A stretch of DNA of 64,000 nt, taken from Jiangella asiatica. Lineage in GTDB: Bacteria; Actinomycetota; Actinomycetes; Jiangellales; Jiangellaceae. Shown one piece after another: positions 54,962-61,733 of the stretch. The stretch is taken from assembly GCF_004349065.1 (NCBI RefSeq), contig NZ_SMKZ01000016.1, forward strand, positions 62,001 through 126,000, given 5' to 3'. Every line of letters begins with the position of its first letter. The stretch's first letter is position 1. Made by a program: the position numbers and the translations under genes. The notes beneath the pieces are model-generated. The model did not search any database, had not been told where the DNA came from, and saw only the letters and a list, made by a program, of their open reading frames with translations.

Positions 54962-56274
54962 GACGAAACCAGCCGGCCGCCGGTCCCCGGCGAGCGCTGG
55001 CCGCGCTGTGCCTCACCCAGATCGTCGGCTGGGGCGTCCTCTACTACTCCTTCCCGGTCGCGCTGCCGGCCATCACCGCCGACACCGGCTGGTCGGAACC
55101 GTCGACGACGGCGGCATTCTCGGCCGCGCTCGTGGTCGCGGCCCTCGCCGGGATCGTGGTCGGCCGGGTCATCGACGGGCACGGACCCCGCTGGGTGATG
55201 ACGTCCGGGTCGATCGTCGGCGTCGGCGCCACCCTGGGCGTGGCGGCCGCGCCGGGGGTCGGCTGGTTCGCCGCGGCCTGGGTGGTCGCCGGCGTCGCGC
55301 AGGCCGGGACCCTCTACGCGCCGGCGTTCACCGCGCTGACCCGTTGGTACGGTGCGGCCCGAACCCGCGCGCTGACCGTGCTGACCCTCGTCGCGGGGCT
55401 CTCCAGCACGATCTTCGCCCCGGCCACCGCAGCGCTGCTCGATCACCTGTCGTGGCGGGAGACCTATGTGGTGCTCGCGGCCATCCTGGCGGTCACGACG
55501 ATCCCCGGGCACGCGGTCGGCCTGAGCGCGCCCTGGCCAGCCGCCGACCACACGGCGCGCTCGTACCTGCGGAACGGCCACGTCCGGGCCGTGGCCACGA
55601 GCCGGGCGTTCATCTGCCTCACCATCTGCGCCGCGCTGACGGCGTTCGCGCTGTTCGCCGCCACCATCCACCTCATCCCGCTGCTCACCCACCGCGACCT
55701 GTCGATGTCGCTCGCCGCGTGGGCGCTCGGGCTGTCCGGTGCCGGGCAGCTGCTCGGCCGCATCGGCTACGCGCCGTTGTCTCGCCGCACCACGCCACGC
55801 GCCCGCACCGTCGCCCTCCTGGCCGCGGCCACGGCGACCATCGGCGCCGTGGGACTGCTCCCGGGCCCGGCGGCCGTACTTGGAGCCGCCAGCATCGCCC
55901 TGGGCATCGCCCGCGGTGCGTTCACGCTGCTGCAGTCGACCGCGGTCAGCGACCGCTGGGGCATCGCCGGCTTCGGCACCCTGTACGGGATCCTCAACGC
56001 GCCGACCACGGTCGCCATGGCGATCGCGCCCTGGGCCGGCAGCGCCATCGCCCAGGTCGTCGGCGGCTACCCGGCCATGTTCGCCGTACTCACCGCGATC
56101 GCCGGCGTCGCCGCCGTCGTCGCGTTGGGCACGTCAGCCAGACCTGAGCTCAGCGAACGAGCTGAGCCACCTGTGCGGGCAGGACGTGCTCGCGGACCCA
56201 GGCCTGGGTGGCCAGCTGGGTGGCGTCCCAGGGCGAGCCGAGCGGCGGGGTGTAGGAGAGGTCGAGCTCGCTGA
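54958..56274 (+). CDS. MFS transporter of the arsenic island
   Basis: 438 residues from GTG 54958 overlapping the ArsO-like stop. Twelve hydrophobic segments; early LTQIVGWGVLYYSFPVALPAI, GRVIDGHGPRWVM between helices 2 and 3, and FGTLYGILNAPTTVAMAIAPWAGS late. Resembles monocarboxylate/oxalate-type MFS permeases. The last 40 or so residues are Arg/Pro-rich and are encoded antisense to the 3' end of the convergent flavoprotein gene (about 125 nt shared). Substrate unknown; an arsenical is plausible. Confidence 0.85.
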   Translation: MRRNQPAAGPRRALAALCLTQIVGWGVLYYSFPVALPAITADTGWSEPSTTAAFSAALVVAALAGIVVGRVIDGHGPRWVMTSGSIVGVGATLGVAAAPGVGWFAAAWVVAGVAQAGTLYAPAFTALTRWYGAARTRALTVLTLVAGLSSTIFAPATAALLDHLSWRETYVVLAAILAVTTIPGHAVGLSAPWPAADHTARSYLRNGHVRAVATSRAFICLTICAALTAFALFAATIHLIPLLTHRDLSMSLAAWALGLSGAGQLLGRIGYAPLSRRTTPRARTVALLAAATATIGAVGLLPGPAAVLGAASIALGIARGAFTLLQSTAVSDRWGIAGFGTLYGILNAPTTVAMAIAPWAGSAIAQVVGGYPAMFAVLTAIAGVAAVVALGTSARPELSERAEPPVRAGRARGPRPGWPAGWRPRASRAAGCRRGRAR

Positions 56275-57559
56275 AGGCCTCGACCGTCATGCGGTGGAAC
56301 AGGGCGGCGGCGTAGGTGTCGACGCGCTTGGCGGTCTCGGTGCCGCGCGGGCCGACGAGCTGCGCGCCAAGCAGGAGGCCGGTGTCGCGGTCGCCGGTGA
56401 CGCGGATCGTGATCGGCTGGGCGCCCGGGTAGTAGGCCTTGTGGTCGTCGGGGGTCGCGGTGCTGCTGACCGGCGCGAAACCGGCCGCCATGGCCTCGTG
56501 CTCCCGCAGGCCGGTGCGGGCCGCGACGAGGTCGAACACCTTCACGACCTGGGTGCCGAGGCTGCCGGCGAACCGCGCGGCTGCGCCGAGCGCGTTCTCG
56601 CCGGCGACCCGGCCCTGCTTGTGCGCGGTGGTGCCCAGCGGGAGGTAGGTGACGCCGAGCTGGCGGTGGTGGGTGACGACGCAGTCCCCGGCGGCCCAGA
56701 CGTGCGGCAGCCCAGTGGCCATCGTCTCGTCGACGACGACGGCGCCGCGCGGCCCGGTCCGCGCCCCGGCCGCGGTCAGCAAGCCGGCGTCGGGGCGGAC
56801 GCCGACCACCACGAGGACCAGGTCTACGTCCCAGGCCAGCGGCTCGCCATCCGGGCCGGCGCCGTCGACGTGCAGGCGCGCTGGACCGGAATCGCCGCGG
56901 GCGATGCCGGTGACGGTCGAGCGCGTGTGTACGGTGACGCCGTTGCGGTCCAGCTCGGCGTGAACCAGGGCGCCGAGCTCGTGGTCGATGGTGGGCAGCA
57001 CCTCGGACAGCATCTCGACCTGCGTGACGGCGATCCCGCGTGCGGTCAGCCCTTCGGCCATCTCCAGCCCGACGTAGCCGGCGCCGACGATGAGCGCCGT
57101 CGAGGGCTGGAGCCGGTCCAGGCTCCGCTCCAGTGCGAACGTGTCGTCCATCGAATGCAACACGTGCACGCCGTCCGCGGCGCCGAGATCGGCCAAGCCG
57201 GCGATCGGCGGGCGGACGGGCACCGCGCCGGTGCCGACGATCAGCTCGTCGTAGGCCAGGGTCGTCTCACCGCCGTCCTTCTCACGCACGGCCAGGCGTC
57301 GCGCGTCGACGTCGAGGGAGGTGGCCAGGGTGTCCAGCCGCAGCCGCATGCCGGTGGCCTCGAGGTCGGCGTGGGTGCGGTGCGCCAGGTTCGACCAGTG
57401 ACCGACCTCACCAGAGATGTAGTACGGGATGCCGCAGATGGAGAAGTTCGGATAGGCGTCGGCGACCACCACGGTCACCTCGGCCGACGGGTCCAGCTCG
57501 CGGGCGCGCAGCGCGGCGGAGATGCCGGCGTCGCTGCCGCCGATGACGACGAGGTGCAC
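56150..57559 (-). CDS. FAD-dependent pyridine nucleotide-disulfide oxidoreductase (CoA-disulfide reductase/NADH oxidase family)
   Basis: 469 residues from GTG 57559 (AAAGG upstream). N-terminal VVIGGSDAGISAALRA, single redox Cys42 in NFSICGIPYYISG as in CoA-disulfide reductases, NAD motif ALIVGAGYVGLEMAEGL, and the C-terminal dimerisation domain with YYPGAQPITIRV and DLSYTPPLGSPWDATQ. Transcribed with the aquaporin gene (10-nt gap). It may reduce a low-molecular-weight disulfide or an arsenic-thiol adduct. Confidence 0.85.
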   Translation of the reverse strand: MHLVVIGGSDAGISAALRARELDPSAEVTVVVADAYPNFSICGIPYYISGEVGHWSNLAHRTHADLEATGMRLRLDTLATSLDVDARRLAVREKDGGETTLAYDELIVGTGAVPVRPPIAGLADLGAADGVHVLHSMDDTFALERSLDRLQPSTALIVGAGYVGLEMAEGLTARGIAVTQVEMLSEVLPTIDHELGALVHAELDRNGVTVHTRSTVTGIARGDSGPARLHVDGAGPDGEPLAWDVDLVLVVVGVRPDAGLLTAAGARTGPRGAVVVDETMATGLPHVWAAGDCVVTHHRQLGVTYLPLGTTAHKQGRVAGENALGAAARFAGSLGTQVVKVFDLVAARTGLREHEAMAAGFAPVSSTATPDDHKAYYPGAQPITIRVTGDRDTGLLLGAQLVGPRGTETAKRVDTYAAALFHRMTVEAFSELDLSYTPPLGSPWDATQLATQAWVREHVLPAQVAQLVR

Positions 57560-57569
57560 GAGATGCCTT

Positions 57570-58319
57570 TCAGATTCGGGCTTGCGTGGGTTCGAGCTGT
57601 GGGACGACGACGGCGTCGGCGGCCCGGCCGGCGGTGGGGTACAGGACCATGACGAGCAGCACCCCGACGGCGCCGCCGGCCACCTGCGCACCCACGAAGG
57701 CCGGGACGGAGGACGGCGCGATGCCGGCGAAGGTGTCGGTGAACATCCGCCCGGCCGTGACGGCGGGGTTGGCGAACGACGTGGAGCTGGTGAACCAGTA
57801 CGCCGCCCCGATGTAGGCGCCGACGGCGGGCGCGGACAGCGCGCCGCGGCCGGTGCGCGCCAGCGCGAAGATCAGCAGAACCAGCCCGGCGGTGGCGACC
57901 ACCTCACCGACCAGGAGGCCGCCGCCGGTGCGACCCGTCGCCGCCATACCGGCCGGGACCTCGAACATGAGGTTCGCCAGGACCGCGCCGCCGATGCCGC
58001 CGGCGCACTGCGCGGCCACGTACCCGGTGACCTCCCCGGGCCGTGGCCCGGCACCTGACGACCGGCCCAGCCACCACTGCGCGAGGGTCACCACGGGGTT
58101 GAGGTGGGCCCCCGAGACCGGTCCGAACACCAGGATCAGCACCGTGAGTCCCAGCACCGTGGCCGTGCTGTTCTCCAGCAGCTGCAGCCCGACGTCGTCC
58201 GGCGACAGCCGCTGGGCCGCGATCCCGGAGCCGACGACGACGGCGACCAGCAGGCAGGTGCCGAGGAATTCGGCCAGCAGACGCCGCCAGAACGCCGGCG
58301 CCGAGTGGATCGCGCTCAT
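57570..58319 (-). CDS. Aquaporin/glycerol facilitator (AqpS-like)
   Basis: 249 residues; ATG at 58319. Six helices with the two pore motifs HLNPVVT (Val for Ala) and FANPAVT. In Sinorhizobium meliloti an aquaporin replaces an arsenite pump: ArsC makes As(III) inside and the channel lets it flow out. The same logic fits here because no ArsB or Acr3 gene is in the island. The -10 CAAGAT lies 6 nt before the ATG, so the mRNA is probably leaderless. Confidence 0.9.
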   Translation of the reverse strand: MSAIHSAPAFWRRLLAEFLGTCLLVAVVVGSGIAAQRLSPDDVGLQLLENSTATVLGLTVLILVFGPVSGAHLNPVVTLAQWWLGRSSGAGPRPGEVTGYVAAQCAGGIGGAVLANLMFEVPAGMAATGRTGGGLLVGEVVATAGLVLLIFALARTGRGALSAPAVGAYIGAAYWFTSSTSFANPAVTAGRMFTDTFAGIAPSSVPAFVGAQVAGGAVGVLLVMVLYPTAGRAADAVVVPQLEPTQARI

Positions 58320-58325
58320 GACGAC

Positions 58326-58357
58326 ATCTTGACCGGACGAGGTAGCTCAGTCAAGAT
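58326..58357. promoter_or_regulatory. Symmetric divergent leaderless promoters built on one inverted repeat
   Basis: Plus: TTGACC, 17 bp, CAAGAT, 7 nt, ATG (58365). Minus: TTGACT, 17 bp, CAAGAT, 6 nt, ATG (58319). The arms ATCTTGAC (58326-58333) and GTCAAGAT (58350-58357) each serve as -35 for one direction and -10 for the other. An ArsR-type repressor bound here would shut both. Confidence 0.75.
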
Positions 58358-58364
58358 TGAGACA

Positions 58365-59036
58365 ATGAACGCTGAGCGAACAGCGCTGGAGAGGCGGGCC
58401 GCCAAGCACGCGGCGCTGTCCGACCCGGCGCGGCTGCACATCGCCGACCTGCTCAGCCTCGGTGACCTCTCCCCCAGCGAGCTGCAGGACCGCCTCGGCA
58501 TGCCGTCGAACCTGCTCGCCCACCACCTCAAGGCCCTGGAAGCCGCGAACCTGCTGAATCGCGGCCGCTCCGAGGCCGATCGGCGCCGCAGCTACGTCCG
58601 GCTCGCGCCCGCCGCGCTGGACGACCTCGTCCCGGGCGCCGTCGGCACGGCGCATCGGGTGGTGTTCGTGTGCACCGCCAACTCCGCCCGCTCCCAGCTG
58701 GCCGCGGCGCTCTGGCGGCAAGCCAGCGCCATCCCCGTCACCTCCGCCGGCACCCATCCTGCCGAGCGCGTCGACCCCGGCGCGGTCGCCGCCGCGCGCC
58801 GGCACGGCATCGCGCTGCGTGCCACCCGGCCCCGCATGCTGCGCGACGTCACCGCCGACGACGACTTCGTGATCACCGTCTGCGACCACGCACACGAGGA
58901 GCTCGGCGAGGTCGGCGGGCTGCACTGGTCCGTTCCCGACCCCGTCCCCGCCGGCACCGACGACGCCTTCGACGCCACCGTGGCCACCCTCGCCGACCGC
59001 GTCGGCGACCTCGCCCCGCGACTCGACCCCGCCTGA
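58365..59036 (+). CDS. ArsR-ArsC fusion (regulator with LMW-PTP arsenate reductase domain)
   Basis: 223 residues from ATG 58365. Residues 1-90 form an ArsR-type winged helix (AALSDPARLHIADLLSLGDLSPSELQDRLGMPSNLLAHHLKAL). Residues of about 97-220 form an LMW-phosphatase/ArsC domain with the P-loop Cys103-TANSA-Arg109 and later CDHAHEELGEVGGLHWSVPDP (acid Asp). Such fusions are known in actinobacteria. It diverges from the aquaporin gene, precedes arsC, and could couple sensing to reduction. Confidence 0.88.
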   Translation: MNAERTALERRAAKHAALSDPARLHIADLLSLGDLSPSELQDRLGMPSNLLAHHLKALEAANLLNRGRSEADRRRSYVRLAPAALDDLVPGAVGTAHRVVFVCTANSARSQLAAALWRQASAIPVTSAGTHPAERVDPGAVAAARRHGIALRATRPRMLRDVTADDDFVITVCDHAHEELGEVGGLHWSVPDPVPAGTDDAFDATVATLADRVGDLAPRLDPA

Positions 59037-61360: not shown

Positions 61361-61378
61361 CGAACGTCAGTACAGCGT

Positions 61379-61396
61379 GTCGTGTATCGTCACGAC
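61379..61396 (+). promoter_or_regulatory. Dyad overlapping the -10 of the third ArsR gene
   Basis: Arms GTCGTG and CACGAC flank TATCGT (61385-61390), a -10 box 7 nt before the ATG at 61398, again implying a leaderless, autoregulated transcript. A second short dyad, CTGACG-AA-CGTCAG, lies at 61357-61370. Confidence 0.55.
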
Positions 61397-61397
61397 C

Positions 61398-61733
61398 ATG
61401 ACCCTCACGGTGACGGTGTCCCATGCCGAGGCGGTGACCCGCCTCGGCCGCGCGCTCTCCGACGAGACCCGGACCCGCATCCTGCTGGCCCTGCGGGAGG
61501 CCCCGGCATCGCCGTCCGATCTCGCCGACACGCTCGGGGTGTCGCGGCAGGTGATGTCCAACCAGCTGGCGTGCCTTCGCGGCTGCGGCCTGGTGACGGC
61601 CGAACGCGACGGCCGGTTCGTCTGGTACCGCCTCGCGGACCAGGGCATCGCCGACGCCCTGGGCGAGCTGCTGACGGTGATGCTCGTCGTCGACCCGGAC
61701 TGCTGCTCGGCGCAGGGGTGCACCTGCTCATGA
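61398..61733 (+). CDS. ArsR family metal sensor with Cys-rich C-terminus
   Basis: 111 residues from ATG 61398. Winged helix: VTRLGRALSDETRTRILLALREAPASPSDLADTLGVSRQVMSNQLACLRGCGLVTAERDGRFVWYRLAD. The C-terminus VVDPDCCSAQGCTCS supplies four Cys, and Cys in LACLRGCG may add to the site, as in CmtR-like Cd/Pb sensors. Coupled by ATGA to the cation transporter gene, which it probably controls. Confidence 0.88.
   Translation: MTLTVTVSHAEAVTRLGRALSDETRTRILLALREAPASPSDLADTLGVSRQVMSNQLACLRGCGLVTAERDGRFVWYRLADQGIADALGELLTVMLVVDPDCCSAQGCTCS

Follow-up and report, generated by a model that had tools for sequence, protein, structure and literature searches.

Overlapping divergent promoters with apparently leaderless transcripts and a predicted shared operator between arsRC and an aquaporin gene in Jiangella asiatica

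Overlapping promoters that diverge, leaderless mRNAs and autorepression by ArsR proteins are each already known. Bidirectional promoters in the sense of Warman and Grainger have a shared, pseudo-symmetrical -10 element, with two divergent start sites that usually lie 10, 18 or 23 bp from each other, and at the bidirectional promoter PacrA/acrR of E. coli the repressor AcrR represses both arms (Warman et al. 2026, PMC12825309). In Streptomyces and Mycobacterium, between roughly a fifth and a quarter of transcripts are leaderless (PMC4895711, PMC8780764, PMC3898074). A reductase together with the channel AqpS forms an arsenate-resistance pathway (PMC4531530), and in one survey the ars operons that carry a MIP gene had no other transporter (PMC4435449). 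The figure legend of PMC6514093 lists Microbacterium sp. A33 with an ArsR-ArsC2 fusion. We found no report of a characterised ArsR-ArsC operator in the open-licence literature.

Here we describe a locus of Jiangella asiatica, located in a 64,000-nucleotide stretch of genomic DNA (the window), in which a gene for an ArsR-ArsC fusion (arsRC) and an aquaporin gene point away from each other. Its features are as follows.

56150-57559, minus strand: gene for an FAD/NAD(P) disulfide oxidoreductase, 10 nt below the aquaporin gene
57570-58319, minus strand: aquaporin/aquaglyceroporin (MIP) gene, 249 aa
58326-58331, minus strand: putative aquaporin -10, CAAGAT, judged by sequence and by start-codon spacing in relatives
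58326-58357, no strand: inverted repeat ATCTTGAC-N16-GTCAAGAT, formed by the interlocked hexamers
58329-58334, plus strand: putative arsRC -35, TTGACC; TTGAC with a 17-18 nt spacer in 61/61 aquaporin loci and 24/33 other loci
58347-58360, no strand: predicted ArsRC operator site 1, TCAGTCAAGATTGA, overlapping the arsRC -10 and the aquaporin -35; TCA-N7-TTGA is kept in loci lacking the aquaporin
58349-58354, minus strand: putative aquaporin -35, TTGACT (GTCAA core on the plus strand), which tracks the presence of a divergent unit
58352-58357, plus strand: putative arsRC -10, CAAGAT, of the xAnnnT type; xAnnnT in 61/61 aquaporin loci and 31/33 other loci
58362-58375, no strand: predicted ArsRC operator site 2, ACAATGAACGCTGA, at a 15-bp spacing from site 1; it takes in the arsRC ATG and codons 2-4
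58365-59036, plus strand: arsRC, ArsR helix-turn-helix fused to an ArsC/LMW-PTP domain, 223 aa
59049-59708, plus strand: gene for a stand-alone arsenate reductase with an N-terminal three-helix domain, 12 nt below arsRC

The oxidoreductase gene is probably co-transcribed with the aquaporin gene. Judged by ArsRC, the nearest named relatives belong to Jiangella (79-84% identity). A second ArsR-family gene, whose best match is CmtR-like and under its NCBIfam cutoff, lies at 61377-61733, 1.7 kb downstream of the stand-alone arsC gene.

ArsRC carries an ArsR-type helix-turn-helix: Pfam HTH_5/HTH_20 scored above cutoff, and NCBIfam HTH_metalloreg fell under its own (47.9 vs 55). Across 89 aligned fusions only two cysteines were conserved, and both of them, C103 of the CX5R loop and C173, belong to the ArsC domain. 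The ArsR half has no conserved cysteine; the usual arsenite sites of the ArsR domain lack one, and it does not look like a classical As(III)-binding ArsR. This cysteine pattern suggests a non-classical sensor.

On the plus strand, TTGACC, 17 nt, CAAGAT and 7 nt lead to the ATG at 58365; on the minus strand, TTGACT, 17 nt, CAAGAT and 6 nt lead to the ATG at 58319. Each -35 shares three bases with the opposite -10, which creates the inverted repeat, whose arms ATCTTGAC (58326-58333) and GTCAAGAT (58350-58357) are complementary at all 8 of 8 positions and stand 16 nt apart. The 45-bp intergenic gap would hold two fully overlapping divergent promoters of the housekeeping type. Because the two opposite-strand -35/-10 sets share DNA and each is conserved with its gene, the arrangement falls under the established term overlapping divergent promoters. 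A preliminary description of this DNA had proposed these hexamers, spacers, start codons and shared arms on both strands, and every coordinate proved right to the base. Its term "face-to-face", though, is the wrong word: the promoters diverge, and both polymerases would leave outward. A generic sigma-70 scan returned zero promoter hits, because CAAGAT agrees with TATAAT at only three of six positions. CAAGAT also lacks the first T of the usual actinobacterial -10, TANNNT (PMC4895711, PMC3898074), a point that counts against the explanation favored below.

The repeat stands out from the genomic background. In the 7.03-Mb genome the pattern ANNTTGAC-N16-GTCAANNT occurs twice, against zero for a reversed-pattern control, and only the site at 58326-58357 recurs at arsRC in other Jiangella genomes. 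Searched together with a downstream arsRC ATG, the pattern turned up in 8 genomes out of 198 from the class; each of the eight belongs to Jiangella, and the match always falls at the arsRC locus (control 0). The exact pattern misses other families, in which the spacer is 18 nt or the -10 differs, or which are absent from the 198-genome sample; the alignments described below include them. A loose pattern with three mismatches was uninformative, matching 13 places per strand in the genome scan versus 4 for the reversed control. By the exact counts, the putative shared-repeat layout is not a product of chance.

We then compared the upstream regions of 113 arsRC loci (arsR-arsC fusions from Actinobacteria), of which 99 could be anchored. 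The core of the minus -35, GTCAA, was present in 57/61 loci with a divergent aquaporin, 3/3 loci in which the FAD reductase gene has moved up into its place, 2/2 loci at contig edges and 3/33 others. Scored by whether a divergent unit starts at the promoter, and leaving out L076 and the contig-edge loci, GTCAA occurred in 62/63 loci with such a unit and 0/23 without. Twelve plasmid loci fetched later gave 8/8 with a divergent unit (Frondihabitans, Arthrobacter, Paenarthrobacter, Agreia, Cnuibacter) versus 0/4 without (Rhodococcus, Streptomyces, Mycobacterium, Mycolicibacterium; Fisher exact 1/495). Within Jiangella itself, the aquaporin-less paralogs L011, L101 and L109 lack GTCAA and keep the rest of the right-hand side. 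The plus promoter, by comparison, is mostly retained in loci both with and without the divergent aquaporin. Its -10 drifts in aquaporin-less loci (GATTAT, GAATAT, TATTAT and others), as interlocking predicts: where the aquaporin is present, the arsRC -10 would be held to CAAnnT because the aquaporin -35 needs GTCAA. All 8 contrasts drawn from the best protein tree agreed in direction, two of them on strongly supported branches; a test restricted to those branches (two pairs) and one with aquaporin presence scored naively (five pairs) each had too few pairs for significance.

Several individual loci differ in what lies beyond the divergent promoter. The only GTCAA-bearing loci among the 33 others are L061, L070 and L076. 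In L061 and L070, what remains of an aquaporin start, or a short ORF at the corresponding position, runs on into an arsC gene. The aquaporin is truncated or internally deleted in L061 and L154, and L070 has a short ORF instead; the divergent promoter and near start codon are kept. L076 (Nocardioides immobilis) retains the minus promoter without an aquaporin; the open frame that starts 6 nt below this promoter has 28 codons, two of them for cysteine (MSNTCPAGCHNDIL...). In L149, L151 and L152, from Rhodococcus and mycobacterial plasmids, arsRC adjoins the phosphate-binding transporter gene pstS, which is divergent in L149 and L152.

The distance from the minus -10 down to the aquaporin start codon is 6-11 nt in 58/61 aquaporin loci: 56 of the 61 have an in-frame ATG or GTG at 6-10 nt, and L005 and L038, whose tblastn match is partial, have a start at 8-11 nt that was identified by visual inspection. 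In the three exceptions (L054, L130, L140) the first in-frame start is 24-41 nt off, and these are exactly the loci without TTGACT or TTGATT. In five loci, where the hexamer is CAAGGA, CAAGGC or CAAGAA, moving one base further gives an xAnnnT that could serve, with a spacer of 18 nt. For arsRC, the -10 and the ATG are 7 nt apart in every aquaporin locus that retains GTCAA. From this spacing we infer that both mRNAs start at or within a few bases of their start codons, which would be ordinary for the phylum given the share of leaderless transcripts in Streptomyces and Mycobacterium. The preliminary description had placed two leaderless promoters on a single inverted repeat. The counts of 62/63 versus 0/23 and 8/8 versus 0/4 back the two promoters, and relatives conserve a spacing of 6-11 nt from each -10 to its start codon, too short to accommodate a Shine-Dalgarno sequence. 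Because GTCAA tracks the divergent unit and the near start codons hold in 58 of the 61 loci, a pair of overlapping, divergent, apparently leaderless promoters is well supported, and the comparison of relatives indicates that the divergent layout is kept by selection.

Conservation does not stop at the arsRC -10. In the locus alignment the conserved block runs on through TCAgtcAAgATTGAG and then TCAatgAAcATTGAG, two copies of TCA-N8-TGA at 15-bp spacing, the second of which is degenerate in the window (ACAATGAACGCTGA versus TCAATGAACATTGA). The pair is kept with or without the aquaporin and is unique as a pattern in the 7-Mb genome. G+C at the third position is 15% for arsRC codon 3, 11% for codon 5 and 40% for codon 6, compared with about 70-96% for most other codons up to 30. 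These values support a constraint at the DNA level on the putative tandem sites that reaches into the first arsRC codons. The pair also precedes apparently leadered starts of arsRC paralogs in some loci, among them ones from Herbiconiux and Plantibacter, so the predicted operator would be independent of the start codon. Being independent of the aquaporin, unique in the genome and present ahead of leadered starts, the pair appears to be neither a by-product of the promoters nor a translation signal. We therefore predict that these conserved tandem sites over the arsRC -10 and start codon are the ArsRC operator. A more distant group of arsRC loci (L063, L067, L071, L073-L075, L082, L083) carries TTGAGTCA repeats in tandem ahead of a start that appears to be leadered.

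The right arm alone was considered as the operator and rejected: GTCAA varies freely in aquaporin-less loci while TCA...TTGA stays. It is also very unlikely that the inverted repeat as a whole is an ArsR operator, with promoters elsewhere and leadered transcripts. Sites of the ArsR family do have dyad symmetry, and a tandem site overlaps the right arm, but where the divergent gene is missing, the left arm beyond TTGAC and the right-arm GTCAA vanish while the tandem site stays, and in 58/61 loci 6-11 nt separate the hexamers from the start codons.

We consider it likely, from the sequence comparisons, that two divergent, near-leaderless promoters share a tandem operator through which ArsRC co-represses, and arsenic co-induces, both transcripts. 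Besides the atypical -10, three points weigh against this reading: the small number of tree contrasts on strongly supported branches, the degenerate second site in the window and an ArsR domain whose usual arsenite sites lack cysteine. The promoters would drive arsRC rightward and the aquaporin and FAD reductase genes leftward. The ArsR-ArsC fusion, the presumed binder of the tandem sites, would repress its own promoter and that of the aquaporin together, and arsenic, the presumed inducer, would release both. ArsC would then reduce arsenate, and the channel would let arsenite out. The tandem sites lie across the aquaporin -35 and, for arsRC, across the -10, the start site and the first codons; this operator, which the preliminary description had missed, is what predicts co-repression and co-induction. 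Joint control is also likely because reductase and channel act in one pathway, and co-expression is expected from the known reductase-channel pathway and from MIP-containing ars operons without another transporter. The centre of the tandem site falls towards arsRC, as it would if ArsRC controlled arsRC alone and the aquaporin were constitutive; yet operator site 1 (58347-58360) covers the aquaporin -35 (58349-58354), and we regard a constitutive aquaporin as quite unlikely.

The preliminary description had further held that polymerase cannot occupy both promoters, so that the two genes compete in an economical switch. Exclusion stands as a consequence of geometry if both promoters are real, since the two polymerase footprints would overlap completely, but it probably matters, if at all, only at strong activity. 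A switch in which mutual exclusion makes expression of one gene suppress the other is unlikely. In E. coli, one strongly activated arm can repress the other, whereas competition at bidirectional promoters is negligible at basal strength (PMC12825309), and AcrR represses both arms, which leaves the switch a minor rival. With one predicted operator common to both promoters and products in one pathway, opposite regulation would have no obvious use. More speculatively, and with considerable doubt, the locus may represent an interlocked class of its own, in which every -35 overlaps the opposing -10, neither mRNA has a leader and the operator extends across the start codon into the first codons; here exclusion after joint induction would set the channel-to-reductase ratio, and the ArsC-domain cysteines would sense arsenic.

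About 50 bp of DNA thus packs two promoters, a predicted operator and two start codons, and the arrangement is kept over wide actinobacterial distances. Aquaporin-less relatives lack exactly the minus-strand promoter bases, so promoter and operator function can be separated without experiment. As a small, naturally occurring example, the locus lends itself to tests of how polymerases exclude one another at overlapping promoters and of translation from leaderless mRNAs; it might also serve as a part for arsenate reporters.

Among known systems, the arsRC2 cluster of Microbacterium sp. A33 reportedly also has an ArsR-ArsC fusion in an actinobacterial ars cluster, but is said to drive an ACR3 operon and not a divergent aquaporin. 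The AqpS pathway of Sinorhizobium meliloti likewise pairs an arsenate reductase with an aquaglyceroporin for arsenite exit; the account of that pathway in PMC4531530, as far as it covers these points, describes no ArsR-ArsC fusion or overlapping leaderless promoters. The prpD / Rv1129c pair of M. tuberculosis (Cortes et al. 2013, PMC3898074) is a divergent regulator/target pair for which leaderless mRNAs were mapped; its genes differ from arsRC and the aquaporin, and the likeness covers gene arrangement and leaderless mRNAs. As in E. coli PacrA/acrR, an autorepressor and a transport gene diverge from overlapping promoters, and there the repressor shuts both. The present locus is not a bidirectional promoter of the Warman and Grainger kind, its -10s (58326-58331 and 58352-58357) being separate. 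PacrA/acrR has a shared -10 and start sites 10-23 bp apart; at arsRC, in contrast, each -35 overlaps the opposite -10, the predicted starts are about 45 bp apart and the transcripts look leaderless.
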